Assembly: GCF_029873635.1 (NCBI RefSeq)
Contig: NC_080417.1
Span: forward strand, 31,050,214 to 31,114,213
DNA from: Malania oleifera
Taxonomy: Eukaryota > Streptophyta > Magnoliopsida > Santalales > Ximeniaceae
Length of the DNA: 64,000 nt
Direction: 5' to 3'
Both the position numbers and the translations under genes were made by a program. The notes beneath the pieces are model-generated. The model was given only the letters and a program-made list of their open reading frames with translations, was not told where the DNA came from and made no database searches. This document shows positions 1,159 to 45,481 of the stretch, one piece after another; position 1 is the stretch's first letter; each line of letters starts with the position of its first letter.

Positions 1159-1789
1159 TACATTTTAATTAACAAAATTCTGCTCGTTGCGCAGTGGAGC
1201 GTGAGTCTACCCGACAGACTCATCGACTAGTGCACACGTTCATCGATGAGTGTTCAACACTTGTTCGTCGAGGAGAAGATGGGTTCATCAACGGGTGGAA
1301 TGTCTGAAATTTTTGAGCTCTCAATATTTTCTCGTTGATGAAAGTAGATCATTCGTCGCCAAGTGGCCTTTATGAATTTGTTGACGAGGCCAGGAGGTTC
1401 TTCGACGAGGCCTCTACTTTTCAAACTTATTTTGCCTCTAAAATGTTGATCCAACCTAGAACTAATGTAAATAGATTTTTCATGAAATTCATGAGTCCTA
1501 AAGTCATACTAAGGTCTTTTTGAGCTTCCAACTACATCATATGAGATATGTAAATACAACTAATACTAAATACCCATTACAATTGAAAACTTGAAGCTTC
1601 TTCATCCTTTTGCTTTTTTAATTCCATGAAGTGTGCCAGGTTGTATATGCTTGAAGTTCCTCATGGCTTCCATGACATCCTTACCTTCCATGTATGCTAA
1701 GTAATGATCTGTTCACAATTTCAATGCACAGGTAAGATACTATGTGATTTGTCATTATCAAAACGAGATTAGACTCATAGGGTCAATAG
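1159..1789 (-). mobile_element. Family S copia LTR fragment (copy S1b), interrupted by S1a
   Basis: A second family S U3 end. Positions 1500-1789 align by eye with the last 300 bases of copy S2 (4420-4721), including 'ttgtcattatcaaaac' and the terminal 'gggtcaata' (CA end changed to TA). Positions 1196-1420 carry repeats built on the palindrome TCGTCGACGA, the same motif as in the gypsy LTRs of this window. S1a appears to have inserted into this copy, so the rest of S1b is expected left of the window. Confidence 0.5.
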
Positions 1790-2040
1790 CTTTGCTAATG
1801 AAGGAGGAGATAAGTTGGAAATAAACAGTAAGGGTATAAAAGGTCAAATTCAATATATGCAATATTGGATTGGGGAACCAACGGGAACAAAGCAATATAG
1901 AGAAACTTTAAAAAAATATTACCAGGATAAAAGTTAAAACACAATTCAACTAACCTTGAACCTTTGCGCACATACATGTGCCCCAAGTTTGTACTTTTCC
2001 CCACCTCATCAATACAGTCATATCATCTTCCAAGTAAAAA
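1790..2040. other. Unassigned 250 bp before the hairpin
   Basis: AT-rich sequence between the end of S1b and the left arm of the inverted repeat. No gene or repeat was recognised in it. Confidence 0.4.
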
Positions 2041-2566
2041 ACCCTAGCCTCTAATTCCACAAACCGCTTCTTCCAAGACTTAACCTCAGCCTCGGCTCTT
2101 GCCTTCACACACTCCAAATCCTTATCTTATTCTTCAGATAAGCAACAACCTCCTTCTCACCTTCACGAGAACTCCTCGAACGCCCCAACAACCGTCACTA
2201 ATCCCTCATTCTTCCTCTTTTCCCTATCGCTCGTTACTCTGTTATCCTCTCGCAAATGAATGATCATTGGCGCTCAGTAAATACTTGCTTGAAGATCAAT
2301 TGGAAGACTTGAAGAAAAAGTACAAAGACGCTAAAGAGACAATCATTCGTTCACGAGAGGATAACAGAGTAACGAGCGATAGGGAAAATAGGAGGAAGGA
2401 GGGATTCGAGAGGTTATTGGGGCCTTCGAGGAGTTCTCGTGAAGGTGAGAAGGAGGTTGTTGCTTATCTGAAGAATAAAATGAAGGATTTGGAGTGCGCA
2501 AAGGCAAAAGACGAGGCTGAGGTTGAGTATTGGAGGAAGCGGTTTATGGAATTAGAGTCTAGGGTG
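2041..2566. repeat. Long inverted repeat (hairpin) from a coiled-coil gene fragment
   Basis: The left arm 2041-2264 is the reverse complement of the right arm 2341-2566, by eye about 85% identical over roughly 225 bp, with a 76-base spacer (2265-2340). Example: 'cgagaggataacagagtaac' in the right arm pairs with 'gttactctgttatcctctcg' in the left. The spacer plus right arm read as one continuous coding frame, so the left arm looks like an inverted duplicate of part of a gene fragment. A transcript across it could fold into a long hairpin. No matching intact gene is visible in the window. Confidence 0.85.
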
Positions 2567-2626
2567 ATTTTTTTAAGTGGCAATTGGCAAGTTGGTAAGA
2601 TACACCTTTGCATTTATCTTAAGTAG
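2267..2626 (+). pseudogene. Coiled-coil protein gene fragment (119-aa ORF)
   Basis: The ORF covers the spacer and right arm of the inverted repeat. It is rich in Lys, Glu and Arg with heptad-like leucines. It starts with LEDQLEDLKKKYKDAKET-type sequence and reaches 'YWRKRFMELESRV' near residue 95, after which the frame runs into unrelated sequence. This looks like a piece of a larger coiled-coil protein, possibly captured by a transposon. The first ATG is not supported by anything else, and I do not recognise the family. It may be transcribed only as part of the hairpin. Confidence 0.35.
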
Positions 2627-2673
2627 AACATTTGTAAGATATTGGTCATTAACTCTAGTAGGAGCAATGCATG

Positions 2674-4721
2674 TGTTGATTAAGGTGTAATCCCAAGAGG
2701 GGGGGTGAATTGGATATTAAAAACAATTAAGGCACTTAATTTCCTTTTACACACTTTTTATCAATTTACCAACTACTTCTTGTTGCTTAATTATGTATGT
2801 GTGTGGCAATCCTATCTATGCATGCAAAATACTCAATTTAAATATAATGCGGAAAATAAAGAGTAAAGGGAAGAGAGAAGACAAACGCAATTTTACGAGG
2901 TTCAGCCGACTTGGCCTACGTCCTCGCCTTGAGCAACCACTCAAGGATTCACTAAAAACCCTGCTCCTTAAAGTGGGACGGAGTTTCCCTTACAAACCAC
3001 TGCTTACAAGAGGTACAGCTCCCTCCTTATCCGCTGCTCACAAGAGGTACAGCTTCCTCCTCACACCCAGTTCACAACCCGAACCGTGTTTACAATGAAA
3101 TCTGAAAATAACACTCAAAACAATACTTCTAACAAAAGCTAGTGAGTACAATTCAATTTCCTAGCACACTAACATATGATATAACTTGAAGCTCGTGAAT
3201 GTATGAAAACGATAAACTCGTTTTATGTATGATATGCCTCAACACACGAATCCCTTTTTAACCAAAACTTTCAAGGAAAGATAAATTCAAAACGTTTTGG
3301 AATAATCTAGGGTTCTTGGTTCACTTTGCAAAAATGCACATTTATATAACTGAAGTGAACTTGTTGGCAAAAACTTATCAAAATCAGAAAATTTTATTTC
3401 AAGTACTCAACCACAAAACTGAGTATATTAATTTGCAGAAAAATATCCCTCAATTAAAATTATATTTATAAGTATCAAGGATATTAAATCAAGTTCTAAT
3501 GTATCTAAAGATAGATCCTTTTAGAAACCACACACTTGAATCAAACCTTTCAATGATTCACACACCATAAAACAAATAATGATCTTGTTTAAAATAGCTT
3601 GGTATATATAAAGATACTTTCAAGATCACTCTTTTGATCAAAAATTAGGTTTTTCAATAAGAAGCCCTTTGAGAAAATATATGTATATTTATATACTCTT
3701 AAACCAAGATTTAATCTACCAAGTTAGATAAACTTTCTCAAGTAATGATCTCTTAGAAAATTATTTTTTGTACGAAAGGCACACTCAAGATCAATACTTT
3801 TCAATACTAGTCAAGAACAACCAATGAGATGATATGTAAAAATCACAAAACTAATAACTTGAAAGATCAAACCTCAATACTAGATTGAAGTACAGTAGAG
3901 TAACCAAGTTCCCTTTGAAAATCTGAATTGATTTGCCCAAGCTTGAAGATATGAGATTGATGTATAGGCAAACGAATAGCACTAATCAACAAACTGGCAA
4001 CAAGGTGTGTTCTTCTCTTTCTTGTGTGTCTCTCTCTTTTCTAGGGTTTAGATATTCATAATATATAGTATATTACCCTTAGAATTAATCTCATCCGTTG
4101 GATCAATAAGATACCTCGCGTGTCTTTTTAATAAATAACTGATTTTTAGGCTTTCCCGCCAATTCAAGCAACCGAACTCGACTTCAGGCTCCTGAAGTGT
4201 CAACTTCAGGTGCCTGAGGTTCCAAGGTCAAGCGACCGAGGTACCTCTACCAGGTTCTGTCTTTCCCATTTAATTCTTCATGCTACTGAAGTGAAGTTCA
4301 GGCTACCGAAGTCCAAATTTTTATTTCCTTTTTCTAATTTTAGAAAATGTTTTGCTCTTTTTCTTGGACCTTTTATAAAACATATTTTCCATAATTTCAA
4401 AAACATTTCTAAGTCCATGAAGGTTCCCTAATGATATACATGAAATGCATGAATCCTAAACTCATTCTAAGTTATGTTGAGCCTCAAGATAAATCATACG
4501 AAAATGTAGATATATGAGTTCTAAATACCCTTTCCCAAGATATTCTTGAACTTTGCCACTTGCATCTTGATTCTCGTACTCTTTGAGTTCCATGGATCTT
4601 GCCAAGATTTTTTAACTCTCCGTGCATGCTTAGTGTAAGTCATGTTCACAAACTCAATGCACAGATCAAATATTAAGTGATTTGTCATTATCAAAACAAG
4701 ATTCAACTCGTAGAGTCAATA
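2674..4721 (-). mobile_element. Family S copia solo LTR (copy S2), TSD GCATG
   Basis: A 2048-bp LTR-like unit flanked by the exact 5-bp direct repeat GCATG (2669-2673 and 4722-4726). Plus-strand termini are TGTTGATT and GAGTCAATA (CA changed to TA). It shares with S3 and S4 the near-terminal 'cccaagaggggg(g)tgaattgg' at 2691 and the 'acgaggttcagcc' block at 2886. Its end also carries the 'ttgtcattatcaaaacaag' block. Positions 4150-4310 hold short repeats of a 'caggctcctgaagt / gaccgagg' type in the minus-strand U3. No internal coding region is present, so it is a solo LTR. Confidence 0.75.
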
Positions 4722-8640: not shown

Positions 8641-9742
8641 GAGACTATTAGTGACGAATCTTCTACATCATCACTTATAGTGTTAAATAAATTATTTTCA
8701 TATTTTTTAAATAAAAAAATTATTAATGACGGTTTCTTAAACCGTCACTAATAACCAGCTATTAGTGACGAATACACTAAACCGTCACTAATAGTGTTAA
8801 ATAACTTATTTTTATATTTTTTAAATAAAAAAACTATTAGTGACTGTTCAAAAACCGTCACTAATAACTTACTATTAGTAACAAATCTTCTAAATCATCA
8901 CTAATAGTGTTAAATAAATTATTTTCATATTTTTTAAATAAAAAAACTATTAGTGACGATTCCTTAAACCGTCACTAATAACTGACTAATAGTGACGAAT
9001 CTTCAAAATTGTCACTAATAGTGTTAAATAAATTATTTTTATATTTTTAAATAAAAAACTACTAGTGACGGTTCTCTAAACCGTCACTAATAAATGACTA
9101 TTAGTGACGAATTTTCAAAACCATCACTAATAGTATTAAATAAATTTTTTTCATATTTTTTATATAAAAAAAATATTAATGACAGTTTAAAAATCGTCAC
9201 TAATAACGTACTATTAGTGAGGAATCTTCAAAACCACCGCTAACAGTGTTAAATCAATTATTTTCATATTTTTAAAATAAAAAACTATTAGTGACGGTTA
9301 AAAAAACCGTCACTACTAACAAACTATTAGTGATGAATTCTCAAAACCATCACTAATAGTGTTAAATAAATTATTTTTATTTATTAATATAATAATAGTA
9401 GTGTGACAGTTACTTAATTGTCACTAATAAGTGACTTTTAGTGTCGAATTCAATTCGTCTCTAGTACCTTAAGAATCGTCGCTAATATTTTTCCGAAATA
9501 ATTTCTGAGCGAAAAATGGTTTCCCGTGATAGTTTGAGCGGGAAAACTGGTTTTTAGTGACGAAATTATTAGTGACGGTTTTAAAACCGTCACTAATAGT
9601 GCCGTATTAGTGACAGTTGCTCACTAATGCTTACACTATTAGTGGCGGTTCTTAAAAACCGTCACTAATACCCACTTTTAGTGATGAAATTGAATCCATC
9701 ACTAATACTTTCGTCACTAAAAATAAGTTTTTTTTTTTAGTG
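8641..9742. mobile_element. CACTA-type transposon end: subterminal repeat array plus TIR
   Basis: About 1.1 kb of repeats of 'attagtgacggtt' and its complement 'aaccgtcactaat', alternating in orientation at roughly 100-120 bp period around 'gttaaataaattattt' spacers. It ends at 9742 in TTTTTTTTAGTG, the complement of a CACTA-type terminus. Subterminal arrays of short inverted motifs next to a CACTA terminus are typical of En/Spm-like elements. The DNA beyond 9742 is copia gag, so the element inserted there. The opposite terminus was not found in the window. Confidence 0.65.
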
Positions 9743-11293: not shown

Positions 11294-12226
11294 TAAAATC
11301 AAGCACACAAATTTTTAGAGGATTTTCTATCTAAGCATTAGTTAAGAATTGAGTTATGAGGGGTATTTATAGATTTTTCTAAAAATATAACCGTTAGGGA
11401 CACTCTAGGTATTTTTAAAATTATTTAATTAAAAATTAAACATTTTTTAGTGCTAAAACATAGCCTGACCCAAAAGGGTCAGTCGACTGACAACTTCGTC
11501 GGTCAGTTGACTTAAGCCAAAATTTAAGTTTTTGTAAGGCTTGGTCGCCAAAAGAAGGGACTGGTTGGCTAACCTCAAGCGATTTCCCAAACCTTCGTAG
11601 GTTCGATCAGCTAGCCTAAAGGATTGGTCGACTGGGCCTTGAAAGGCCAGTTAGCTTAGGCCTTTTTGTTCTAAGATGGTTGGTTGGCTGAGCATGATAA
11701 AACTAGGCAAAGGTGTGGTCGGTCGGCTGGGCAAGATAAGGCTTGACGGTCGGTCGGCTGGGCACATACGACCAGTCTATGGATTGAGGCTAATTTGAAT
11801 GTCTAAGGGTCGGTCAATCGGGCTCACTAAAAATCCTAAGTATAGCTCTATTTTGACCCTAAAGTTATTCCAAAAACCTTTGTCTGATTTTAGTTTTTGC
11901 GAAAAGGATTTTTTATTAATGTTTAGGTCCCCTAAGGTCTGTTTATGGGTATTTGAGCTTTTAATCACATCATGCAAGTCATACATTATTACAGACATTT
12001 CTAAACTAAATGCAATTACAAATAAATATATGTCTTCTTCTTCTTCCGCTCTTCACACTTCTATGGAATACGCCAGAATGAGTGTGCTTTAAGTTCTTCC
12101 CTAGCTTCCATTTTCAGTTCCCTTATGTGAGTGTTGAATTATAAACATGTTCACATACTAAGTACACACATAAGATACTAGTGCTTTGTCAACATCAAAA
12201 CAAGGATCGGACTCAAAAAGTCAACA
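9996..12226 (-). mobile_element. Family S copia 5' LTR (copy S3)
   Basis: A 2231-bp LTR with plus-strand termini TGATGTGA and AAGTCAACA, next to a PBS and gag on the minus strand. It shares with S2 and S4 the 'cgaggttcggcc' block (10260) and the terminal 'ttgtcaacatcaaaacaagg' block. TATTTATA (11364-11371) is a minus-strand TATA. Four copies of a roughly 55-bp unit ('ccttacgaggcggagtctcc') lie at about 10361-10590. Positions 11460-11830 (U3) contain repeated 'ggtcggtcggctggg'-type motifs. The LTR abuts and interrupts copia X at 12227. The matching 3' LTR is absent. Confidence 0.75.
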
Positions 12227-15058: not shown

Positions 15059-15387
15059 TATAAGAACCCGAACCGTAGTACATGGATAAAATATTTGAAA
15101 GAAAAGTAAAGTCGTAATTTGGACAAGCTTTGTCGATGAAGTCAGAGTTCATCGACGAAGTCCCTTCAGTTCTCGACAATGAAATTTAGTGTCTCGTCGA
15201 CGAGGAGATCCCAAAGGATTTTGGGAAAAATCTGGAACCTTGGCTCGTCGACGAGGCCACCATCTCGTCGATGAAGGTAATGGCGGACTCGTCGACGAGG
15301 ACGCCAATTCGTCGGTGAATCCACCCGAGTCAAAGGGCTATAAATATCAGTTTCCATTACTTTGGAGCTAAGTAATCTCAAAATATC

Positions 15388-15458
<71 letters not shown>

Positions 15459-16947: not shown

Positions 16948-16949
16948 GC

Positions 16950-16962
16950 TTAGTATCAGAGC
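16950..16962 (+). other. Gypsy A primer binding site
   Basis: TTAGTATCAGAGC differs by one base from the TTGGTATCAGAGC of gypsy B and lies two bases after the LTR end. It is complementary to initiator tRNA-Met. Confidence 0.8.
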
Positions 16963-17272
16963 TAACTAGGTTACTAGGTCTTGTAGACTTGGTTAGGAGT
17001 ATTGATGTGTACATACCAGAGTATAGAATATGGGAAATGGGTAGTGTTGGTCGAGGGTTGTTCTTTTGCTAGACCGGGATTTGTCGGCGATATTCCATGT
17101 TTTTCCTAGGATGACGATTCTAGTAAAGGCAGGGCAAACCATTGATGGATTCGTGTTGGTGTGACAGGGCAGGCTTAGACCTGTGAGAGCAATAGTTGAC
17201 ATGATTAGGTCTATGATTGTGTTAACTGTGCATAATATAGGAATTCTAACCGATTCCTATTCTGTTTTCAAA

Positions 17273-26608: not shown

Positions 26609-26742
26609 GATGTACTATAAGATGTTTTACCAGCTAAATTTCGTTTCATTATTTGTCAGTATAATATGTTTGTAAGCTTAGTTATCACACACTAGTAATA
26701 ACATTTTTCGTCTTACTGAGCGTTGTCTCATCCCAGTGATTT

Positions 26743-30141: not shown

Positions 30142-30370
30142 TGTACCCTAGTTTTGTACAGACTCTAGTATGGTATGTTATATAGATAGACGAAACATTT
30201 TCCGCTGCGTAACTGATGAGTATAGATGTATATGTGTATGTGTATAGGGCATTTGTGTACCCCACGGGGTCAAACCCTTTTATTGTATTGTATCCTGTAA
30301 GTTTTAATTGATACAAAGATAGGCTAGGTTACTTTAATCACACCTGGATCCATCTGCGGGTTCGGGGCGT

Positions 30371-30850
30371 GATAGTGCCACGGAGTTTGTGTCAGGGCTG
30401 GGTTGAGGAGTAGTAGAGTGCAGTTTGACTTATCCTGGTAGGCCAACCAATGTTAAGTCTCGCCTACGGACCGCACAACCATGTCATGAGGGATTAAATT
30501 ATGATGTACAGTTTCCCAGGGTATTATCACAATTATATTTATGTATATAGATTTACAAAACAACGGCAGATATTCTATAATACTAGAATTATGAATAAAT
30601 AGTACTCAGAGATAGTGCCACGGGGTTTGTGTCAAGGCTGGGTTGAGGAGTAGTAGAGTGCAGTTTGACTTATCCTGGTAGGCCAACCAGTGTTAAGTCT
30701 CGCCTACGGACCGCACAACCATGTCATGAGGGATTAAATTATGATGTATAGTTTCCCAGGATATTATCACAATTATATTTATGTATATAGATTTACAAAA
30801 CAACGGCAGATATTCTATAGTACTAGAATTATGAATAAATAGTACTCAGA
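30371..30850. repeat. 240-bp direct tandem duplication
   Basis: 'gatagtgccacgg' recurs exactly 240 bp apart (30371 and 30611), and the two 240-bp units are almost identical by eye. Only one copy is present at the matching place in unit 1 (24215 onward), so this arose after the large duplication. Confidence 0.9.
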
Positions 30851-31617
30851 GATCTCAGCTATTTTAAACTATATGAGTGTATGATGTTGTAGTGACATGG
30901 GGAAATTATGGTATTTAAATAGTAAAATAGGGAGGAAAATGCAAATTGAAAAAGGGGTTGATAGTAGGCCTCATCGACGAATGCTTCGAATTCGTCGATG
31001 AAGTGGCTTATTGGGCTCATTGACGAGGGCGCGTTTCGACGACGAGAAAACACCAAGAGGCTATTTTCCCATATCTGAATTTCATCAACGAGAAACAAAC
31101 GTTCGTCAACGAACTTCCTTCGTGACTTCATCAACGAGGTGACGTGGCTCGTCGGCGAAACTCAGTGTATAAATAGCCGTAATTCGGATTTTAGCGTAGA
31201 TTTTTAACCCAAAACAAATTCTGTCTCTCCACTTCGATTTCCACTCCTTCTCTCTAAGTTTCTGGGCCGGATTTTTGTCGGTTCGACGATTTGAGGTCAC
31301 CACGACACTCTTGGGAGAGTTCTCTTCAAATCTGTGGGAGTGGATCGTTGGTGGGGCTAGCTTGAATTCCATCCCAGATTTGAGGTAAGGCATTCTATTC
31401 AGTATTTGACTTTCCTTCAGTTGTAGAAAATGTAGTAGTCGAAGAAATACTGAATTTATGTTCTGAGAGATGTTGTTTTAAGGGTACTGAACAAGGAACC
31501 CTGCAGGTGCAGGACTAGTTGTCGTAAGGGCTTTTCAAAAGTCAGGTAAGGGGATAAACTAAGCTAATTATTTTTATGAAAATATATGTATAATTTTACA
31601 GCATTTAATTTCAGGAA

Positions 31618-31648
<31 letters not shown>

Positions 31649-31834
31649 AATTAGCATTATGTTTGGGAAATTACTGCTGTAAATGATGATATGTTTTAAA
31701 TATGTGTAAGACCCATTTAGTATGGCATAAGTAGAATTTATTATGAATTATTGCTTTCTGGGAAAATGTTAAACGATACAAAGTTTTACTATAATATACC
31801 GGCGTACGGGCCGAGAGTTTTTATATGGTATATC

Positions 31835-33764
31835 TGTAAGAACCCAAACCGTGATAAAGGGGTTAAATAAATAGGAGAGGGGCAAATTGGGAATTTGGCA
31901 CATTTTGTCGACGAACCTAGAATTCGTCAACGAAACCTTTGTTCTTCTCGTCAACGAAATTCAGAGACTCGTTGACGAAGAGAAGACGAGGAGTCTCGAA
32001 AAAACCTGAGATCCCAGATTTGTCGACGAGGCCATCGATTTGTCGACGAAGTCAATGAAAGATTCGTCGACGAGAACACCATTTTGTCGACCAAATTGCT
32101 CGAGGTCAAAGGCCTATAAATAGAAATTCCTTTACTTCCTCACTAAGAAACTTAAATTTTTATCTCTCTCTCTCTCTCTAAACCTCTCCCTACTCTCTCT
32201 CTCTCTCTCTAGATTTCTTCGCTGATCGTTGATGGAATCGGAAATCTGAAGTTACCACAAGGATTGTGGAAGGATTCTCTACAATTTCTATGGATCGAAA
32301 TCTCGTTTCGGAGATTTTGGGGTTTCAGTATAAAATCGAGGTAAGGCTTGGTTTTCAATTCTGATTTTGTAGTTTTGTAGGTAACTGTCTTGTGAGTATA
32401 TTTTGTATTTTGATTTGTAGATTTTTGAACTCGATTCGCTGTTTAGGAGCCTTGGAGTTCGGGATTTGGTATCCGGGGAAAAGGTAAGGGGAACTATGTT
32501 TATATTGGTTATTTTTGAAATCGAACTCGGTGGAACTGTGGTCCACGGTCCTGTGTGTGTTTTGACTACTCATTTGGGGGGGATCTAATAGGGAAAACTA
32601 TGGGTTTTTCATTATTACATTTTTGGGAAAAGGGGGCGACGAGCTGCATCCCTGGTTTTGTTGAAAACCGAGTATATGTGTGATTTATACTGTGATATTG
32701 GGATGGTCGTGCCTTGACTTGTTTAAACTGTATTTGTTTGAAAAACCATGATTTAAATTACCAAATGGGTGTGGTTTGTTTGGTTATATGAGCATTCATG
32801 TGTGTGTGATATGTTGAAATGCTAGTAGGAAAGCGGTTCCGAAATTATTTCAAGTAGTGAGAGTGTTCGGATCTATATCCGAGGGCGTGTATTTTATCGC
32901 CTGCCATGTGGGCAAGAGTGTCCGGCTCTATATCTGAGGGCTTGTGTTTATCGCCTGCCACGTAGGCAAGAGTGTTCGGCTCTATATCCAAGGGCGTGAG
33001 CCTATACCTGCAGATCAGACCGAAGGGTGTGGATCCACCAGTTAACGCCGGTACGATGCCATGGGAGTCGAGGACTAGCCATGTGCCAGTGGCGCAGTGC
33101 TTCGTGGGTTGGTTTCGAGCCAACGTCGTATGTCGCGGGACAGCTTTGGGCCGATGGGTGTGATGACACCAGGATTGTTGATCATGTGTTTGTGTATGGG
33201 TGCGTGTGTGCACTGTGGAAACTTGTGTATGTGTGCATGTATGCACTGTGAAAATTAGTACTGGAATGCATTTAACTGCGTGTATGTTGTATCATGATAA
33301 CACTCAAATTCCACACACCGATATAACATGTGTTCTCCCTTACTGAGAGGTGTCTCACCCCTACTGTACGTACATTTTTACAGGTCCTTCGAGTAACTGG
33401 AACTAGCATCCTGGTGTAGGAGCGTAGTGGCCGGTGTACTGCATTTAGTGCTTGGGTAAATGCTTGGACTGTATTTTTGGTGGGTTTCCATTTTAAGATG
33501 TATTTGGGCACCCAGTTTGTACGTTTTGATAGAGCCATGTTTTTCTCTTGTATAGACTCTGGTATGGTATTGTATATGATGTTATAGAATGACCTCTTTC
33601 CGCTGCGTATATGTTGGTGATTGGATGTGTATAGGGTGCCTGGGAACCCCACAGGGTCAGACCCTCATCCATTATACTGTATCTTTGGATGTTTAATCGG
33701 ATACAAGGACGGGTTAGATTACATTCTCACCCTTGGGTCCCATTTCGTGGTTCAGGGCATGACA
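31835..33764 (+). repeat. Gypsy B 5' LTR
   Basis: TGTAAGAACC to GGCATGACA. The U3 has about eight TCGTCGACGA-like palindromes at 31907-32095, then TATAAATA at 32115-32122, a CT-rich leader and 'gaggtaaggcttgg' at about 32338. A second donor-like 'aaaaggtaagggg' lies at 32479. Three units of about 57 bp containing 'tctatatccgaggg' lie at 32859-33000. Confidence 0.9.
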
Positions 33765-33766
33765 AC

Positions 33767-33779
33767 TTGGTATCAGAGC
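33767..33779 (+). other. Gypsy B primer binding site
   Basis: TTGGTATCAGAGC, two bases after the LTR end; complementary to initiator tRNA-Met. Confidence 0.9.
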
Positions 33780-34088
33780 TAACCAGGTTACTAGATCTTG
33801 TAGACTTGGTTAGGCTTAGTTATGAGTACATACCAAAGTATAGGATGTGGATATGGGTAGAGTTGGTTGAGGGTGGTTTGGTTGCTAAACCGGGATTTGT
33901 CAATAGTATTCTGTGTTTTTCCTAGGATGACAATTCCAGTAAAAGCAGGGCAGATCATTGATGACTTTCGTGTCGGTGTGATAGGACAGACCTAGACCTG
34001 GCAGGGAGTAGTTAACACGATTAGTGTAGATCATTGTGTTAATTGTATGTGTTGTAGGGATACTGATAGATTCCTATTGTGCAGCAGA

Positions 34089-35043
34089 ATTGAGCCCAAG
34101 GATAATGACCTGGGAAGTGGCTCGAAGGAGACTGCGAGTGATGAGTCTCCTTCTGTGCCTCGAGGTTTGATGAGGAAGGTATTACGGGAGATCGGGCGGA
34201 GTGTGAGGAGATGCGAGCACTCTCCTACTGCTGCGAGGTGCACCATTAAGAGGTTCACATGCATGCATCCTCCGACGTTCTCTAGAGGACCTGACCCAAC
34301 GATAACAGAGGACTGGATGGAGAAGACTGAGAGGATTCTGGAAGTCCTGCAGTGCACGGATAGGCAGCGAGTCCTCTATGCTACTTTCTAGCTGTCTGAG
34401 GAGGCGAGTCGATGGTGGACTACAGTGAGTCTTCTAGAGAAGTAGAGAGCCAGTTCTAAAGAGATGTCATGGAGTCGTGATGCGAAGGCAGATGAGTTTA
34501 CTGCGCTGACTCAGGGGAGTTTGACGGTGCAGGGGTATGCGGCTCGTTACATAGAGCTGTCCCGCTTTGCACCATGTATGATCTTGAGCGAGTATGAGAA
34601 GACTCAGAGGTTCAAGAAGGGTTTGAGGAGGGATATCCGCAGATTGGTGGGTATGCTTCAGATCCATGAGTTCTCAGTGTTGGTGGATAAAGCCACGATG
34701 ATCGAGACTGGTATCCGAGAGGACGAGGTGGATCGGGAATCGAGGAAGAGGACAGTACCTTCTGGTTCTCAGACAGGACCTCATCAGGGATCGTGAAAGA
34801 AGAGGAGCAAGGGCTTGGGTTATCGTCAGAATACCGAGCTCCAGGACTCTCAGATGAACTAGACTAGTGATCGTTGCACCAGATGCCACAAGTGGCACGA
34901 GGGTGAGTGTCGGTCGTTTGGGGGTAACTGCTACAATTGTGGCCAGCCAAGCCACATGTCTCGTGATTGTCAGGCACCGAAGCGAGATGTGCCTGCATTC
35001 AATGGGAACCAAGGGAGCAATCAGATACCTCGGGGAACCATTT
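34089..35043 (+). pseudogene. Gypsy B gag (start codon lost, stops)
   Basis: Homologous to gypsy A gag. At the position of A's start codon, B reads ATT (34089-34091). Recognisable parts: FTCMHPPTFSRGPDP, EDWMEKTERILEVL, SRWWTTVSLLE, and a complete zinc knuckle CYNCGQPSHMSRDC at 34929-34970. Stops occur near 34389, 34443, 34794, 34861 and 35041. A short deletion appears between LLEK and the DAKADEF segment, because the stretch matching A's FKEVFFERYF (17665-17695) is missing here. Confidence 0.85.
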
Positions 35044-35049
35044 AGACGA

Positions 35050-38000
35050 ATACAGCTCTAACCAAAGTATACTCTCTTACTCCAGCGGACACTAAGCATA
35101 CAGATAATGTGGTGACAGGTACCTTATTATTGCTTTTGAATAAAGCTTCTATTTTTTTTTATTCGGGTGCGACCCATTCCTTTGTGTCTATGAATTTTAT
35201 GGGTTGGTGTGGGGTTGAGACTTGAGACATGAATGAGGTGTTATCTGTTGTTACACCATCTAGGAATGTATCTTTCTGTAGGAAGATGTTGGTTGACTGC
35301 CCAGTGGAAATTAAGGGGAAGCTGCTACCAGTAAATCTTATTGTATATGACATGTCGGGGTTCGATGTCATTCTGGGGATGGATTGGTTGTTCTCCAGTT
35401 ATGTTGTGATCAACTATCATAAGAAGGTGGTAGTTTTTAGACCACCTAGGGAACAGGAATATGAATTCATGGGATCATGTGTGCGTCCAGTGCCACAGAT
35501 TCTGTCAGCTCTACAGGCAAGGAGGCTACTCTTCGACGGATGTCAGGGGTACCTAGCTTGTGTACAGAAACTGTCATGGAATAAGTTGAGACTCGAGGAC
35601 ATTCGAGTAGTCAGCGAGTTTTCGGATGTGTTTCTAGATGATTTATCCGGTTTACCTCCAGATCGTGAGGTGGATTTTGCAATAGAGTTGCTGCCTGGTA
35701 AGGCACCGATCTCTAAAGCTCCATATCGGATGGCTCCAGTAGAACTTCGGGAGTTGAACAAACAGTTGCAGGAATTCCTGGACAAGGGATTCATTCGACC
35801 TAGTGTTTCTCCCTAGAGAGCTCCAATATTGTTTATGAAGAAGAAGGACGGGTCGATGCGAATGTGCATTGATTTCCGTGAGATTAACAAGGTAACTGTG
35901 AAGAATCGCTATCCTTTACCTCGTACAGATGATCTCTTTAACTAGTTGCAGGGAACGCGAGTCTTTTCGAAGATCGACTTGCGGTCAAGATATCATCAAG
36001 TGAGGATTAGAGGGGAAGATGTAGCAAAAACTGCTTTCCGAACCAGGTATGGCCACTATGAGTTCTTAGTCATGCCTTTTGGGTTGACGAATGCTCCGGC
36101 GGTGTTCATGGATCTGATGAACAGGGTTTTCCATGAGTACCTAGATCGATTTGTAGTGGTGTTCATTGACGACATTCTGGTATACTCGAGGAGTACGGAA
36201 GAGCATGTGGAACATTTAAGGTTAGTGTTACAGATTCTGCGGGAGAAGAAGTTGTATGCTAAACTGAAGAAGTGTGAATTTTGGTTGAGTCAGATTGCGT
36301 TCTTAGGCCATGTGGTTACTGGTGATGGTATATCAATTGATCCTAGCAAGATTGAAGCTGTGGTCAACTGGGTGAGGCCGAAGAATGTGCAGGAGGTTCA
36401 AAGTTTTCTAGGACTGGCGGGTTATTATCGTCGGTTCATAGAGGGTTTCTCTAAACTGTCTGGACCTCTAACACGATTGACCAGGAAAGGAGTCCAGTTT
36501 GAGTGGACCAGTGATTGTGAGCAATGCTTTCAGGAGTTGAAGCACCGGCTAGTTACTGTTCTAGTGTTGACCATTCCTTCGGGGGATAGTGGATTTGTGA
36601 TTTATAGCAACGCGTCTTAAAGGGTATGGGATGTGTGCTAATGCAGCAGGGTAAGGTAGTCGCGTATGCCTCTCGGCAATTGAAAAAGTATGAGAAGAAT
36701 TATCCTACGCACGATTTGGAGTTGGCTGCTGTGGTATATGCACTAAAGATCTGGCGACATTATCTGTACGGGGTGCAGTGTGAGATCTTCACTGACCATA
36801 AGAGCCTCAGGTATTTCTTCACACAAAAGGAGTTGAACATGAGACAGAGGCGTTGGCTAGACTTGATTAAGGACTACGATTGCACGATCAGTTATCACCC
36901 AGGGAAGGCTAATGTGGTAGCTGATGCATTGAGTTGGAAGTCAGGGCCTACGGCTGTATCTACGGTTGTAACTCAATGTCACATCAGATGGGATTTGGAA
37001 AGCTCAGGTATAGAATTGGTGGTTGGTGAGCATCAGGCTTATCTTTCCAGTTTGGTGATCCAACCGACTTTGTTTGAGCGTATAAAAGCCACGCAGGCTA
37101 GTGACGCAGAGTTGGCAGAGGTTAGAGAAATGGTACAGTAGGGACTGGCTACAAAGTTTAACATCTCTGAGGGAGGTGTGTTGAGGTTTCGGACCAGACT
37201 ATGTGTTCCGAACGATGATGAGATTAAAAGGACAATTCTGGAGGAAGCGCATCGTTCTAGGTATACGGTACATCCTGGTGGTACAAAGATGTATCGAGAC
37301 TTGTGTGAGACCCTCTGGTGGTCTGGTATGAAAAGGCAAATTGCTCAGTTCTTGGAGCAGTGTCTAACGTGTCAACAGGTGAAAGCTAAACATTAGAGAC
37401 TAGCAGGGCCGTTGCAGCCTTTGCCTATTCCGGTGTGGAAATGGGAGCATATTTCTATGGATTTTGTGACCAGATTGCCGCCAACGCTTTACGAGCAGAA
37501 TGTTATTTGGGTGATTGTGGATAGATTGACAAAATCTGCTCATTTCATATCGATGAAGGTTAGCTATCCTTTAAGTAGGCTAGTTGATATGTATATGCAT
37601 GAGATTGTGAGAATGCATAGGGTACCAGTGTCCATTGTGTCAGATTAAGACCCAAGTTTACTTTCCGATTCTGGACAAGCTTGCAGAAGGCATTAGGGAC
37701 GAAGCTTACTTTCAGTACAGCGTTCCACCCCCAAACTGATGGACACTCGGAGAGGACGATACAGATATTGGAAGATATGTTGCGAGCTTATGTGTTAGAC
37801 TTCGGTGGTAGCTGGATACAGTTTATGCCACTTGTAGAGTTCTCTTATAACAACAGCTTTCAGTCTAGTATCGCGATGGCACCGTTCCAGGCTTTGTATG
37901 GTTGGTGGTGTCGATCTCCCTTGTGTTGGGATGAGATTGATGAACGTCAGGTGTTAGGACCTGAACTTGTGCAGCAAGCATCTAAGAAGGTGGGTTTGAT

Positions 38001-38484
38001 CCGGGAGAGGATTAGATCAGCTCAGAGTCTGCAGAAGAGTTATGCAGATGTTCTCCGCTGTGATTTAGAGTTCGAAGTGGGAGGTAACGTATTTCTGCGT
38101 ATTGCTCTGATGAAAGGGGTGATGAGATTTGGGAGGAAGGGCAAGTTGAGCCCGAGGTATATTGGACCATTCAAGGTACCTGAACGAGTGAGTCCGGTAG
38201 CCTACAGGATTGCATTACCCCCAACACTTTCAAGGGTCCACGATGTGTTTCACGTATCCATGTTGAGGAGGTACGTGTTGGATCCTTCACATGTTATTAG
38301 TTATAATGAGTTGGAAATTAGGGATACGTTAGCGTATAAAGAGATACCTATTCAGGTTCTGGACCATAAAGTTCAGAAGCTTCGTACCAAAGAGATACCG
38401 TTAGTGAAGGTATTGTGGCAGAACCACGAGGTTGAGGAAGCTTCTTGGGAACTGGAAACGAAAATACGCCGAAAGTATCCATAG
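35050..38484 (+). pseudogene. Gypsy B pol (protease, RT, RNase H, integrase, chromodomain; broken)
   Basis: Protease DSG is YSG (Tyr codon 35160-35162), so the catalytic Asp is lost. [43 protein letters not shown] and an intact FIDDILVYS (about 36161-36187). RNase H: YSNAS replaces the usual Asp, followed by a frameshift at about 36618. Then [24 protein letters not shown]. Integrase: the QCLTCQQ zinc part is intact, WEHISMDFVTRLPP, then a TAA and frameshift near 37647-37680. Tail: VHDVFHVSMLRRY and PLVKVLWQNHEVEEASWELE, a Tekay-type chromodomain region ending at 38484. Other stops lie near 35814, 35943, 37139 and 37394. Confidence 0.9.
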
Positions 38485-38748
38485 TTGTTTTGAGCACTTG
38501 TACATGATCCTACTGTGGGTTGGGATAGGTGGTTGGTCGTCAGGAGTGTGTGTGTATTGTGAATTCCTGAGACAGTTGTATATGTAACCACAGTATTCCT
38601 AGGCCATAAGTGAGGGTATGTATGCGTATGTGTATGATGGGGCTACGCTGTAGTAGTCGCCAGTTTCTTGTTGATAGTTAGTATGTGTGTGTTCCGGGTA
38701 TGATTTTGTGAATGAGAGATGGCAAATTTCGAGGACGAAATTTTTATA

Positions 38749-38760
38749 AGGAGGGGAGAT
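38749..38760 (+). other. Gypsy B polypurine tract
   Basis: Purine run AAGGAGGGGAGA directly before the 3' LTR at 38761. Confidence 0.85.
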
Positions 38761-40687
38761 TGTAAGAACCCGAATTGTGATAAAGGGGTTAAATAAATAA
38801 GAGAGGGGCAAATTGGGAATTTGGCACATTTCGTCGACAAACCCAGAATTCGTCAACGAAACCTTTATTCTTCTCGTCGACGAAATTCAGAGACTCGTCG
38901 ACGAAGAGAAGTTGAGGAAACTCGGAAAAACCAGAGATCCAAAATTTGTCGACGAGGCCATTGATTCGTCGACGAAGTCAATGAAAGATTTGTCGACGAG
39001 AACACCATTTCGTCGACAAAATTGCCCAGGGTCAAAGGCCTATAAATAGAAATTCCTTTACTTCCTCACTAAGAAACTTAAATTTTTATCTCTCTCTCTC
39101 TAAACCTCTCCCTACTCTCTCTCTTTCTCTCTAGATTTCTTCGCCGATCGTTGATGGAATCGAAAATCTGAAGTTACCATGAGGATTGTGGAAGGATTCT
39201 CTACAATTTCTACGGATCGAAATCTTGTTTCGGAGATTTTTGGATTTAGACATAAAATCGAGGTAAGGCTCGGTTTTCAATTCTATTTTTGTAGTTTTGT
39301 AGGTAACTATCTTGTGAGTATATTTTGTACTATGATTTGTAGATTTTTGAACTCAGTTCGCTGTTTAGGAGCCTTGGAGTTCGGGATTTGGTATTCGGGG
39401 AAAAGGTAAGGGGAACTATGTTTATATTGGTTATTTTTGAAATCGAACTCGGTGGAACTGTGGTCCACGGTCCTGTGTGTGTTTTGACTACTCATTTGGG
39501 GGGGATCTAATGGGGAAAACTATGGGTTTTTCATTATTACAGTTTTGGGAAAAGGGGGCGACGGGCTGCATCCCTGGTTTTGTTGAGAACCAAGTATATG
39601 TGTGATTTATACTGTGATATTGGGATGGTCGTGCCTTGACTTGTTTAAACTGTATTTTTTTGAAAAACCATGATTTAAATTACCAAATGGGTGTGGTTTG
39701 TTTGGTTATATGAGCATTCATGTGTGTGTGATATGTTGAAATGCTAGTAGGAACGCGGTTCCGAAATGATTTCAAGTAGTGAGAGTGTTCGGATCTATAT
39801 CCGAGGGCATGTATTTTACCGCCTGCCATGTGGGCAAGAGTGTCCGGCTCTATATCCGAGGGCGTGTGTTTATCGCCTGCCACGTAGGTAAGAGTGTTCG
39901 GCTCTATATCCGAGGGCATGAGCCTATACCCGCAGATCAGGCCGAAGGGTGTGGATCCACCAGTTAGCGCCGGTACGATGCCATGGGAGTCGGGGACTAG
40001 CCATGTGCCAGTGGCGCAGTGCTTCGTGGGTTGGTTTCGGGCCAACGTAGTATGTCACGGGCTGGCTTCGGGCCGATGGGTGTGACGACACCAAGATTGT
40101 TGATCATGTGTTTGTGTATGGGTGCGTGTGTGCACTGTGGAAACTTGTGTATGTGTGCGTGTATGCACTGTGAAAATTAGTACTAGAATGCATTTAACTA
40201 CGTATATGTTGTATCATGATAACACTCAAATGCCACACACCGATATAACATGTGTTCTCCTTTACTAAGAGGTGTCTCACCCCTGCTGTACGTACATTTT
40301 TACAGGTCCTTCGAGTAAACGGAACTAGCATCCTGGTGTAGGGAGCGTAGTGTCTGGTGTACTGCATTTAGCGCTTGGGTAAATGCTTGGACTGTATTTT
40401 TGGTGGGTTGCCATTTTGAGATGTATTTGGGCACCTCGTTTGTACTTTTTGACAGAGCCATGTTTTGCTCTTGTATAGACTCTGGTATGGTATTGTATAT
40501 GATGTTATAGAATGACCTTTTTCCGTTGCATATATGTTGGTAATTGGATGTGTTTAGGGTGCCTGGGAACCCCATGGGGTCGGATCCTCATCCGTTGTAT
40601 TGTATCTTTGGATGTTTGATCGGATACAGGGATAGGTTAGACTACATTCTCACCCTTGGATCCCATTTCGGGGTTCGGGGTGTGACA
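38761..40687 (+). repeat. Gypsy B 3' LTR
   Basis: TGTAAGAACC to GGGGTGTGACA, collinear with the 5' LTR throughout: palindrome array 38829-39020, TATAAATA near 39041, 'gaggtaaggctcgg' near 39260, and three 'tctatatccgaggg' units at 39779-39920. Confidence 0.9.
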
Positions 40688-41998
40688 ATATCGGCGCACG
40701 AGCCGAGAGTTTTATATGATATACTGGCGTACGAGCCGAGGATGTTCTCACATGATATGCCGGCGTACAGGCCAAGCCTTTTATATGATATGCCGATGTA
40801 TGGGATAAGCCTTTTATTTGATATTTGTGATACGGCGTATGGGCCGTGATTGATAAAATATGAAATGTCGGCGTATAAGATTTTCATATTATGATATGAA
40901 ATGTGATATGATGATATTGATTTGACAATTATTATTATGGAATAGTAATGTATCACATTTTAAAATATGTCATATGTTATTAGAACCAGGTTGACTTAGT
41001 TTAGGCTTACATGAGCACGGTACCGTAGCTATGTGATCACGATCATTATGATGTTAGTGTTATCGCTGTCGTACAGGGCAGCGGGAAGATGGATAGTCGA
41101 TGTGGTTTATTGTAGTGTTGGCGCCCCTGGTGTACGGACCAGGTCTGACAGACCCATCGTACTTACAGACTTTTGCTTTTGACTTGGCAGTGGTCGGCCA
41201 ACCATTGTCAGGTCCTACCTTCGGCCCTCACAACCCAGTCATGGAGGGGTAAGACATGACACTAGTCAGCTAACCTTCCAAGGTTGTTTTTGTATTATTA
41301 TTGTATGAGATGAGTTATGTTTATGGAAATCTAGAATGTTCTATCATGATATGATTATATATGTTTTCCCAAATATGATACAGACAGTTTCACTAAATAT
41401 GTTTATGTATGGTTTTATGTATAACTTGGAAATACTCATGTTGCCACACACTAGTATTAGTTTATTTCCCTTACTGAGAGGTGTCTCGCCCCAAATTATA
41501 TGCGCACTTTAGGAGCCCCAGATAGGAGAGCGGATAAAGCTCCGCAGCGCTAGAGTTCATTAGTTATACCCTATCCAAAAGGTAAGTCTTTTACTAGGGT
41601 CAGATGGATTTTTTTGGGTGACGACCCTAGGACTGGTTTTGATTGTTTTGGGATGTATACAATGGAAGTAGTAAGCTTTAGTATTGTGTTGAATGGTAAT
41701 ATGAGATGTATATGATTTTATGTTTCCTGCTGCTTAGGCTTCCATGTTGTATTTCTGATGTATCCCTGGTACCCACAGGTTCAGGTTGATTATGATCTGT
41801 TAGGTTTATTATATCGGTTTTTTATTATCATGGAAAAAAATGGTAAATAAGCAGGTCGTTACAAATGTACTATGAGATGTTTTACCAGCTAAATTTCGTT
41901 TCAATTGTTTGTCAGTATAATATGTTTGTAAGCTCAGTTATCACATACTAGTAATAACATATTTCCTCTTACTGAACGTTCTCTCATCCCAGTGATTT

Positions 41999-44175
41999 TG
42001 TAATGACCTACTACTTATATAACATTTTTTTTTTCCATCTATACATATATAACATAATTACCATCTGTCTGAGATAATACTGATCACATCCCAGACTCAA
42101 AGGAGCACTGAGGAAACTCTGTACATCACACATATCTAAACAGCAGTATGCAAGAAACTGTAATCTGTTATATACAATACCAGAAAACTATAAATCTTAT
42201 AGTGTATGTAAATATTACAAAATACCCAGTGACATCACCAAAACCTGGAATCTACCCCAAACCACTGGTATCGTAAAAACACCTTCCCTTCCAGTATGGG
42301 CAGTGCAAGATAATCTCTACTCGCGAGCTTAATATGCTCACCTAGCTGGATCTCTTGAAAAAAATAGTAAGTCACTGGGATGATACAATGCTCGGTAAGA
42401 GGAAATATGTTATTACTAGTGTGTGGAGGCTAAGTTGCACATTTAATATACTGAAATAATACTGATACTGTAAAATGAGTAAGTTGATATACTGTACAAA
42501 ACACATGTAATGTAGTTTAAAATACAACTGTGTATCTAAATTGCTATCTATACATACTGCTAATCTGATAATATAAGTTGATGTTGTATGATACTATACA
42601 TAGGAACTTCTGCTAATACCCTGGGATTTGTATGTCATGATTTAACCCCTCATGACAGGGTTGTGCGGCCCGTAGGCTGGACTTACTCTAGCTGGCCTGC
42701 TAGGCAAGTCAATCTATCTCTATCATCTGCCAATCTAACCCACTGCAATCTCTCCGCACAATCTCCAAATCTAACATCGTCTAACCGGCCACCTTAACCC
42801 AGCTCTCTAGGGAGACTGCAATCTCTCTTGGCACAGTTAGACGGAATCCACATACTATCTGAGTTATGTGGTTGCACTCTATCTGCAATAGCAACGGTAG
42901 CGTGCTCTGCTGTCTATATCTGTCTGAAATTTTCACAAGGTTCTGATATCGTGTAATACTGTATACATATATAAATATATATTTATCTTACTGCTTTTAA
43001 CATGATTTCAAAATAACCATAACACTATAATCTGAACTGTAATATTAGAATTATCTGAATGAAAAATTTATAATATCTGTCTGAAATATATGTAATATCT
43101 ATCTGAAATATCTGTAATATCTATCTGAAATATCTGTAATATTTTTTTCTAAGATCTGTAACATTTGGCTGTAATATCTATAATTTCTTTCTAATATGTC
43201 TGTAATTTCTGTCTAAGTGTTATGGTTTAGAAATCATGTTATTCAGACAAATGCTATAAATCTTACTTTCTGCTAATAAACTTGTATAACTGGATATCTG
43301 TAAAATTTCATAATCAACATATTAAACTATAATAAACTCAGGCCACACAACTGTGTAATTCAAATCTCGTGCTTCATATCTATAATTTCTCTGAAATAAT
43401 AATTCTCATGATATTCTGGAAAAATAAACTGATCAACATGCTTGAAAATATAAATACATAATTTTCTATTATACATTCTAAAAACTCCCTAACATAGCAT
43501 ATTTCCCTTACCTAATTTCTAAAAAGCCCCTACTGTATTCTAGTCTTACACCTGCAAGGTTCCCCACTCAACACCCTAAAAACAATATCTCCCAGAACAA
43601 AATATCAGTATTTCTTCGTATACTCTATTTCTTATAACTATGGAAAAGGCTAATATTGAATATAATGTCTTACCCTGAGATTGGGATGAAATTCAAACCA
43701 GCCCCACCAATGATCCGCTCCGGCAGACTTGAAGAGAACTTTCCCAGGAGAGTCGTGGTGGCCTCGAATAGTCGAACCAGCAAGAATTTGGCTCGAAAAC
43801 CTAGAGAGAAGGTGGGAGAAACAAACAAGAGAGAGAGAAAAAGGAGAGCTTTTGCATGAAAAATCTGCAGAAAATTCGAGTTTAGGCTATTTATACACTG
43901 GCTTTCGTCGGCAAGCCACGTCACTTCATCGACGAGGTCAAGAAGGATGTTCGTCGATGAATGCCTACTCCTCGTCAATGAAATTTAGAACTTGGAAAAA
44001 CAGCTTCTTGGTATCTTCTCGTCAACGAGACACGCCCCCGTCGACGAGGCCTTCGTGTGTGCTCGTCGACAAATCCCCTGTGTTCGTCTACGAGACCCTG
44101 TTTAATTTTTCAATTTTAATTCCTTTTCTCTCCTTATTCTATTATTAAATTATGAAAATTATCCGGCTCTCTACA
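41999..44175 (-). mobile_element. Family C solo LTR C3 (complete), TSD GATTT
   Basis: 2177 bp on the minus strand. The exact 5-bp repeat GATTT lies at 41994-41998 and 44176-44180. On the minus strand it starts TGTAGAGAGCC and carries TCGTCGACGA-like motifs (44100 down to 43905). A TATA (complement at about 43892) and a CT-rich leader follow, and it ends GTCATTACA at 41999. No coding region is present. It is inverted relative to C1 and C2 and inserted in C0. Confidence 0.85.
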
Positions 44176-44536: not shown

Positions 44537-44538
44537 GT

Positions 44539-44552
44539 TTGGTATCAGAGCC
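44539..44552 (+). other. Primer binding site of the family C element
   Basis: TTGGTATCAGAGCC two bases after LTR end 44536; complementary to initiator tRNA-Met. It shows that C0 is a 5' LTR, not a solo LTR. Confidence 0.85.
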
Positions 44553-44862
44553 TAGGTTGCTAGGTTCTATAGGCTCTAGAGTGCAGTGGAAACAATACCA
44601 TGATATAGGAAAAGGATTTGAGGTTTTGTTCTGTGGTCTAAGTACAGAATTTCCGTGGTGGTTTCTATGTCTTTCCTAGGGTGACGATTTCAGGAAAGCC
44701 ATAGTAAACTATTGTCAGGTCGTGTGTCTAGGTTGCAGGATTGAATTTTGAATTAAGATTAGGGAGGGTAGTTAATTGTGAAGATGAGATTTCAGTTAGA
44801 AGAAATAAATTAGATTTGTATGGGAGATAGAGTCCTTAAATTATATTTATTGTCTTTTCAGG

Positions 44863-45317
44863 ATGGACCTAGGGAGTAGTGGTATGAATGTTGGGGATGA
44901 TGGAGCAGGACCTTTCAGTATGGAGGGCAGAGATTCCGATGCGGTACTGCACAACGTCACCCAGCAGGTGATGGCTGAGATAGCCAAAAGCTTAGGGGAG
45001 CGTAGCTGCACGATCGAGCAATTTACGCGGATAAGACCTCCATCATTTTCTAGAGGAGCAGACCCTCTAGTAGTTGAGAACTTGATTCAGGATATTGAGG
45101 ATATAATGATGGTCCTCCCATGTACTGACGAGCAAAAGGTATTGTTTGCGACATTGAAGTTAGCCATGGAGGCAAAACACTGGTGGAGATCAGCAAGGTT
45201 GATTGAGGAACAGAGGCTTGATCCGGTAGCAGTGACGTGGAGCCATTTCCGAGAGTTGTTTTTTGACCGGTACTTCTCTGCCACCGTTAGGAGAGCGAAG
45301 GCAACAGAATCTCTCGG
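44863..45317 (+). pseudogene. Family C gypsy gag, N-terminal part
   Basis: ATG at 44863 (MDLGSSGMNVGDDGAG). The gag domain is intact for about 150 codons: SCTIEQFTRIRPPSFSRG, IEDIMMVLPCTDEQKVLFAT, AKHWWRSARLIEE and WSHFRELFFDRYFSAT. After KATES the frame runs straight into an inverted LTR fragment, so the rest of gag and all of pol are lost. It is clearly related to gypsy A and B gag but diverged, and without internal stops over this stretch. Confidence 0.85.
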
Positions 45318-45481
45318 TATCCTCTCGTCGACGATCCTTTGAACCTCACGGACAAGCCACAGAAGAGACTTCGTCAACAAGAGAAGGAGTCTCGTCAACG
45401 AGCCTTGTTGTTTTCACCTTTTTAAATTCCTTCCCCTTTTCTTATTTTTTTAATCCACATTTCTCGGGTTGGGTTCTTACA
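45318..45481 (-). mobile_element. Inverted gypsy LTR fragment (U3 start)
   Basis: On the minus strand this starts TGTAAGAACCC at 45481 like the LTRs of gypsy A and B, followed after about 90 bases by TCGTTGACGA/TCGTCGACGA motifs. Only about 165 bp is present. It replaces the C-terminal part of the family C element, so a deletion or complex rearrangement joined the two. Confidence 0.6.

Follow-up and report, generated by a model that had tools for sequence, protein, structure and literature searches.

Palindrome arrays in the promoters of long terminal repeats (LTRs) have been described mainly for Sireviruses, for which a functional test has been called for (Bousios et al. 2010, PMC2829016). 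According to the available part of that article, the RM boxes of these elements comprise 8 to 32 palindromes per element, are high in CpG and lie shortly upstream of the TATA box. A CGG-CCG signature occurs in 12 of 13 published RMs, which were termed Sirevirus-specific, being absent from the classic Ty1/copia elements compared there (PMC2829016). The 5′ CpG islands reported for Del (Tekay) LTRs are variable in length, poorly conserved and, in the accessible portion of the text, not found in the eudicot elements studied (Cruz et al. 2014, PMC4029996); the word “palindrome” is absent from that text. A maize palindrome, CACCGGACNNNGTCCGGTG, is common in Copia and Helitron, two superfamilies, in the part of the source available (PMC10760457). 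Here, we describe arrays of a 12-bp palindromic site, YTCGTCGACGAR, in 64 kb of Malania oleifera contig NC_080417.1 (positions 31,050,214 to 31,114,213; hereafter, the window), a region of nested LTR retrotransposons with ca. 37% G+C. Nine full arrays of eight sites each were found: four in the LTRs of two gypsy insertions (gypsy A and B), four in related LTR-like sequences (family C) and one in a Sirevirus-type copia LTR (S1b). We consider that the evidence is evenly poised for reading the array as a U3 enhancer, in which the eight sites would be bound by a dimeric protein, likely of the host.

Palindrome arrays in gypsy and copia LTRs

The window was scanned for TCGTCGACGA with at most two mismatches, using 10 first-order Markov simulations of the window as background. 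The scan returned 88 matches, compared with 8.0 ± 2.4 in the simulated windows, where 200-bp stretches never contained more than two. Ten clusters had at least three matches, namely the four gypsy A and B LTRs, five family C sequences (four with full arrays and one with a half array) and S1b. Each full array held 7–9 matches and the half array three; the cluster at 38729–39147 also took in two stray matches beyond the array of the gypsy B 3′ LTR. Sites were then scored as 12-mers, with a CG-to-TG/CA-type change counted as 0.6 of a match. All nine full arrays contained eight copies of YTCGTCGACGAR within a span of 189–191 bp, and the distance from the first to the last site was 177–179 bp. Sites within the full arrays scored at least 9.8 out of 12, and five weaker matches outside them (8.2–8.6; two in the gypsy B 5′ LTR, one in the gypsy B 3′ LTR and two in S1b) were left out.

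The sites are generally laid out in two groups of four (4+4) at intervals of ca. 21, 25, 21, 46, 21, 25 and 21 bp. The gypsy A 5′ and 3′ LTR arrays (15129–15319 and 22219–22409, both on the plus strand) and the gypsy B 5′ and 3′ LTR arrays (31904–32094 and 38830–39020, both plus) have identical intervals of 19, 24, 21, 51, 20, 24 and 20 bp, and TATAAATA lies 19 bp after the first of these arrays. In family C, array C1 (13736–13924, plus) has intervals of 21, 24, 21, 44, 21, 25 and 21 bp, with TATATATA 18 bp past the last site. Array C2 (24572–24761, plus) and its duplicate C3 (30970–31159, plus) have intervals of 21, 25, 19, 46, 21, 25 and 21 bp, and C4 (43904–44094, minus) differs from them only in a central interval of 47 bp; TATAAATA follows C2 and C4 at 8 bp. 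The half array C5 (45324–45402, minus) consists of the first four sites (intervals of 21, 25 and 21 bp) in a sequence that begins with TGTAAGAACCC at 45481 and is cut off past the sites. The S1b array (1219–1409, minus) has eight sites at intervals of 21, 25, 21, 47, 20, 25 and 20 bp. A TATA box lies 8–20 bp past the last site in all eight full gypsy and family C arrays.

The initial annotation had placed about eight palindromes in less than 200 bp, upstream of the TATA box, in seven gypsy and family C intervals, and the same motif in S1b (1196–1420). Our results support this description: the gypsy and family C arrays have eight sites each, and in 500 local simulations per interval the observed count was never reached, either there or in S1b. 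Most of its coordinates also hold, although the full array at 30970–31159 and the half array at 45324–45402 had been missed.

Across six arrays, the information content was 0.97–1.82 bits at the 12 site positions and at most 0.33 bits at the six flanking positions per side, a contrast that is partly built in because the sites were picked with the 12-mer score. Similarly, position 1 was Y and position 12 was R in 95 of 96 letters in these arrays, which the scoring partly favours. Each site contains three CpGs, and the observed/expected CpG ratio was 1.27–2.17 in the nine arrays versus 0.72 in the window. These arrays are not independent, as C2 and C3 seem to be the two halves of a segmental duplication and the two LTRs of each element represent one insertion; the number of independent LTRs behind the nine full arrays is thus about six (A, B, C1, C2/3, C4 and S1b), with a single copia-type array in the one window. 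No trace of duplication was seen among the spacers of the same array (tandem z −0.6 to 1.1). Growth of the arrays by recent duplication of a group of four sites was ruled out, the spacers within an array being unlike.

Constraint and CpG decay at the sites

To compare lineages, site positions were taken from one sequence only, and the other sequence was read through a MAFFT alignment. Between the 3′ LTRs of gypsy A and B, transversions were found at 1/96 site bases versus 18/95 spacer bases. The corresponding values were 3/96 versus 16/91 for C1–C2, 2/96 versus 13/94 for C2–C4 and 3/96 versus 11/91 for C4–C1, which amounts to rates of 1%–3% in sites and 12%–19% in spacers. Outside the arrays, the rate was 0.12–0.22 upstream and 0.075–0.253 in the 400 bp downstream, so that the sites also fell below the downstream sequence. 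The combined rate of transversions and gaps rose as the frame was slid off the sites; its minimum was at register 0 between the gypsy A and B 3′ LTRs (in both directions) and for C2–C4, tied between 0 and +1 for C1–C2 and at +1 for C4–C1. The sites are constrained between gypsy lineages, whereas the spacers are not. Transition rates were closer (0.15–0.20 in sites versus 0.23–0.34 in spacers), as would be expected if the CpGs of the sites decay after insertion.

The 72 sites showed 76 transitions and five other changes at 432 CpG bases, compared with 11 changes at 288 T/A bases. Variation is therefore concentrated at CG/TG positions, as had been stated in the initial annotation, and CpG-type decay is likewise present. 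The sites look as though they were maintained during element replication and eroded once the elements fell silent, and we infer that methylation is the cause of this erosion.

Copia LTRs of the locus

The S1b array lies in a minus-strand LTR whose start was placed near 1790. Homology of this LTR to two further Sirevirus-type LTRs, S2 and S3, covers 1469–1793 (67% over 314 and 66% over 337 columns) and stops ca. 60 bp ahead of the array. An inverted-repeat arm resembling TTTTGATGATGACAAA, the Sirevirus motif near the LTR start, occurs with one mismatch in S1b (1748–1763) and with none in the LTR S4 (29118–29133). The array also agrees with Sirevirus RM boxes in number and position (at least eight palindromes, starting 200–400 bp inside the LTR), with eight sites of which the first lies ca. 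380 bp from the inferred start. In contrast, the CGG-CCG signature was not found, the S1b site being YTCGTCGACGAR; S4 has CGGTCGACC. The polyC-rich integrase signal of Sirevirus LTR ends, CACCCCCCCTCTTGG, was present in S4 (26976) and S2 (2699), and the end of the S1b LTR was not located in the window. Neither the Sirevirus polypurine tract AGGGGGAG-AT/TG nor the primer-binding site (PBS) TATCAGAGC matched near 1790, beside the S1b LTR, which is consistent with this LTR being solo or broken, and no TATA box occurred in the ca. 60 bp left before another Sirevirus-type LTR start near 1160. We read S1b as a Sirevirus LTR that has an array of its own; alternatively, it might be a junction with an unrecognised LTR piece.

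The 110 bp before the S1b array scored high against S2 (z 8.0), S4 (4.3) and S3 (3.0), which first suggested that the flank was Sirevirus-like up to the first site. This reading was weakened when the flank was split: the signal lay in the far 51 bp (S2 z 9.3, S4 6.0, S3 0.7), whereas the near 60 bp showed no significant match to the S or gypsy LTRs (S2 z 1.6, S3 1.5, C1 1.2). The 58 bp past the array gave no significant match either (best S3 z 1.7, S4 1.5, C2 1.2).

The S4 LTR (26951–29158, minus; target duplication GTATG) is of the Sirevirus type, and its array (28254–28870, minus) has a different motif and layout, with GGTCGACC palindromes that alternate at ca. 32/40 bp in the middle part. 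The related core annotated there was recovered as 10 GTCGAC, mostly inside GGTCGACC; TCGTCGACGA was not in excess (one match, reached in 119/500 simulations). No GTCGAC occurred in the window before 11482, hence no exact copy in S1a, S2 or S1b. Variants of the motif had further been reported for S1a, S2 and S3, for which no coordinates were given; in the stretches that we delimited, the counts of GTCGAC were 0, 0 and 2, respectively, and the remaining palindromes, perfect or nearly so, were of different kinds. A motif common to all S LTRs was rejected, as S1b alone of the five carries it. The palindromes at 840–1040 (S1a), 4150–4330 (S2) and 11460–11840 (S3) occupy a similar position in the LTR, so that several palindrome types occur in one locus.

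Origin of the S1b array

The annotated sharing of one core between copia and unrelated gypsy LTRs narrows to gypsy elements and one of five S LTRs, with gypsy A, B and family C themselves related. S1b shares the core, count, span and layout of the gypsy arrays and differs in its spacers. Its seven intervals differ from those of C2 by 5 bp in sum, an agreement with a probability of 5e-7 to 1e-5 under random spacing of equal span and reached by 6 of 630 orders of S1b's own intervals; the latter figure is the more cautious, granting the interval lengths. The S1b spacers showed no significant match to those of the eight gypsy and family C arrays (z −0.2 to 1.8, mean 0.9). However, the 16 pairings of A/B with C spacers scored alike (z −0.6 to 2.6, mean 1.0), even though these LTRs can be aligned in other parts. 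The spacer test is therefore powerless at such depth, and an ancient common origin could underlie the S1b array. The outer letters of individual sites agreed between A and B (12/16, p 0.02) and within C (32/48, p 0.01), and showed no significant agreement between A/B and C (52/96, p 0.22) or between S1b and the gypsy arrays (39/80, null 41.1, p 0.73).

The S1b array might stem from an ancient capture of gypsy LTR sequence, or a gypsy LTR might have acquired it from copia, with the layout inherited and the spacers saturated since. Such a capture could have proceeded through, for example, template switching between co-packaged RNAs, with the repeated sites as microhomology; S1b might also be a junction with an unrecognised gypsy-like LTR piece. 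This explanation concerns origin only, is compatible with enhancer function and seems to us a realistic possibility, though short of probable. The close agreement in layout, count and span speaks for it, as does the end of clear Sirevirus homology ca. 60 bp before the array, and the spacer mismatch is uninformative for the reason given above. Against it stand the mismatch as such and the disagreement in outer letters, yet A/B and C do not agree significantly in these letters either. Additionally, the S1b flanks are unlike gypsy (z −0.3 to −0.7 for the 110 bp before the array, −0.2 to 1.2 when restricted to the closest 60 bp and −1.2 to 1.2 after it), the TGTAAGAACCC start was not found beside the array, and the array sits where Sirevirus repeat boxes sit. 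Alternatively, copia and gypsy elements might have converged independently on a fixed eight-site code (4+4, ca. 21/25 bp) read by one host DNA-binding protein, with the geometry itself under selection, a proposal that we regard as tentative and rather doubtful. The unassignable array flanks and the early end of Sirevirus homology make ancient capture and convergence inseparable. The dissimilar spacers and flanks do argue against a recent gene conversion or recombination between elements, which the initial annotation had named as evidence that would refute its reading.

Possible function of the arrays

In the proposed enhancer, a dimeric protein would bind the 12-bp palindrome at eight sites just before the TATA box. 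Each group of four sites would form two pairs, with the sites of a pair ca. 21 bp (two helical turns) apart, and the occupied sites would drive LTR transcription. The reader would most likely be a host transcription factor, as the site and its layout seem to be common to elements of two superfamilies. To our knowledge, no tested binder of the YTCGTCGACGAR 12-mer has been described. After insertion, methylation at the three CpGs of each site may switch the sites off, and C-to-T decay would then erode them. The layout, which was not part of the initial annotation, strengthens its suggestion of a shared factor. Several points weigh against the enhancer reading. The intervals of 25 and 46 bp are not whole helical turns, and A/B and C differ in phase. 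The sole copia-type array is old, lacks its TATA box and is flanked on each side by 60 bp that cannot be assigned, and no single factor would serve all S LTRs, the remaining four having different palindromes. In raw identity, sites were nominally below spacers between the gypsy A LTRs (0.83 versus 0.91) and between C2 and C3 (0.82 versus 0.91), whereas the gypsy B LTRs showed the opposite (0.92 versus 0.88). The null result in the near flank of S1b lowered our confidence in the enhancer from slightly better than even to even, and that in independent convergence by a small step within the doubtful range.

The palindromes might instead be kept for RNA or single-strand structure that feeds small RNAs, as proposed for maize Sireviruses. 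The layout is symmetric, and on both strands the nine arrays folded at lower energies than their dinucleotide shuffles (z −1.5 to −7.8). However, low energies follow from palindromes as such, and S1b folds weakly (z −1.5 and −1.9). When the sites were kept and the spacers placed in 150 random orders (one strand), the real order was among the most stable 5% in only one of nine arrays (C2, 0.03); C1 was at 0.19, and seven arrays fell in the less stable half. Folding therefore does not explain the layout, and a layout serving a hairpin was rejected, with C2 as an exception. Given the palindromic site, the fixed count and spacing, the closeness to the TATA box and the turnover of spacers, protein binding is favoured over RNA structure, which we consider improbable. 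Still less probable is that tandem growth left the array behind as a mere CpG island with no sequence-specific reader. The CpG ratio is indeed high in the arrays, and grass Del-lineage LTRs have a 5′ CpG island, but the islands described in the available text vary in length and show little conservation (PMC4029996). In contrast, the constraint here is centred on the 12-bp site including its non-CpG bases (11 of 288 T/A bases changed), and the spacers bear no sign of duplication. We give the least credence to the sites being targets of an element-encoded anti-silencing protein, comparable to the VANC proteins of Arabidopsis VANDAL elements; the copia element would borrow it through the same motif. 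Arrays of VANC target motifs do exist in non-coding regions, and those of VANC6 are shared by the unrelated element AT9TSD1, but in the part of the article available the target repeats vary considerably among related elements (PMC5735166), whereas they are fixed at eight here. Inspection of gypsy A and B revealed no further gene, a weak point against this explanation since it drew on a plain list of reading frames and on scans of nine window pieces.

Structure of the locus

Gypsy A (15059–24214, plus) has LTRs at 15059–16947 and 22149–24214, a target duplication of GTGCC, a PBS at 16954 and a reverse transcriptase (RT) fragment at 19289–19705. Gypsy B (31835–40687, plus) has LTRs at 31835–33764 and 38761–40687, a target duplication of ATATC, a PBS at 33771 and an RT fragment at 35946–36617. 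Both share the PBS TATCAGAGC, and the divergence between 5′ and 3′ LTRs is 8.8% in gypsy A and 6.1% in gypsy B. The Ty3/gypsy order of RT followed by integrase was found in both, with RVT_1 (9e-22 in A, 1e-29 in B) and, downstream, SH3_Tf2-1 (3e-24 and 1e-24, respectively). The two pieces scanned gave no Pfam chromodomain at an E threshold of 0.001, a similar tail being recognised by eye only; the assignment of both elements to the Del/Tekay type is putative. Long CT runs lie 3′ of the TATA box in the gypsy A LTRs (15388–15457 and 22478–22553, with 35 and 38 repeats), and a shorter run occurs in the gypsy B 5′ LTR (32163–32210).

Family C is LTR-like and aligns to A and B (60%–65% in places), and C5 starts with TGTAAGAACCC; by alignment, the three groups of LTRs are related to one another. 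No complete family C element with two bounded LTRs was found in the window. The stretches 23978–30144 and 30138–43212 match in order and differ by 7.9%–8.6% in the two parts measured. They apparently represent a tandem segmental duplication starting inside the gypsy A 3′ LTR; on this reading, C2 and C3 are one array copied. Each copy is broken by one insertion, S4 in one and gypsy B in the other. The second copy also contains a 240-bp unit in tandem duplicate (30371–30853, 97.5% identity). Elsewhere in the window, a 113-bp tandem repeat (8644–9449, 7.1 copies) has a unit with inverted ACTATTAGTGACGG and CCGTCACTAATA parts. Reading-frame pieces at ca. 49400–54700 resemble plant cytochrome P450 by eye, with what we take to be a P450-like heme-binding signature; the only such piece scanned (49634–50092) had no Pfam match.

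Comparison with known systems

A four-site pattern found no loci in viral contigs or in genome contigs, although it is insensitive, with two matches in the window itself. An RT search found no match in the viral contigs and 12 loci in the genome contigs, none of which had a TCGTCGACGA array; the largest count per 200 bp was two, except for five in one G+C-rich contig (L012). These contigs are catalogued with bacterial assemblies (those of Streptomyces, Solirubrobacter and Robertmurraya among others), and their gypsy RTs (L001–L012) are 46%–69% identical to that of gypsy B; most are probably eukaryotic contamination. One such gypsy relative on an unrelated contig (L009) has a 19-bp CG-rich repeat, AGACTTACGCAAGTGCGCA, in 5.6 copies (701–805) upstream of a PBS at 1238. 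Other motifs may thus also form arrays in the LTRs of such elements. The C2 region (241 bp) had no blastn match among plasmids. Among the matches listed from the open full-text literature, which leaves out most subscription papers, none pointed, by title and the start of the abstract, to a comparable palindrome array in gypsy LTRs, and the available parts of PMC6911290 and PMC10794571 held nothing bearing on the arrays. A defined 12-bp site with a fixed count and layout, in what seems to be the same array in two superfamilies, offers a testable question and a precise query for plant genomes, and the arrays show that promoter sites are under selection in the face of rapid CpG decay.

VANDALs are DNA transposons. 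The VANC target arrays resemble those described here as arrays of a short motif in non-coding transposable element DNA with a sequence-specific protein reader, one motif being common to an unrelated element; they differ, in the part of the text available, in their motif, variable repeats and element-encoded protein (Hosaka et al. 2017, PMC5735166). The maize palindrome CACCGGACNNNGTCCGGTG is another motif, treated in the accessible text as RNA secondary structure tied to small RNAs (PMC10760457). The Del CpG islands likewise enrich the 5′ portion of gypsy LTRs in CpG (PMC4029996), whereas the length is fixed and the sites are conserved here. Sirevirus RM boxes also consist of many CpG-rich palindromes just ahead of the TATA box. 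The GTCGAC core is present in a Vitis RM, CGGTCGACCG, to which S4 comes close; the GGTCGACC type of S4 is already published for a Vitis Sirevirus (PMC2829016). In contrast, S1b and the gypsy arrays have TCGTC-GACGA instead of CGG-CCG, boxes of such a kind sit here in gypsy LTRs, and the sites follow a fixed 4+4 layout that is not described in the available part of that article (PMC2829016).

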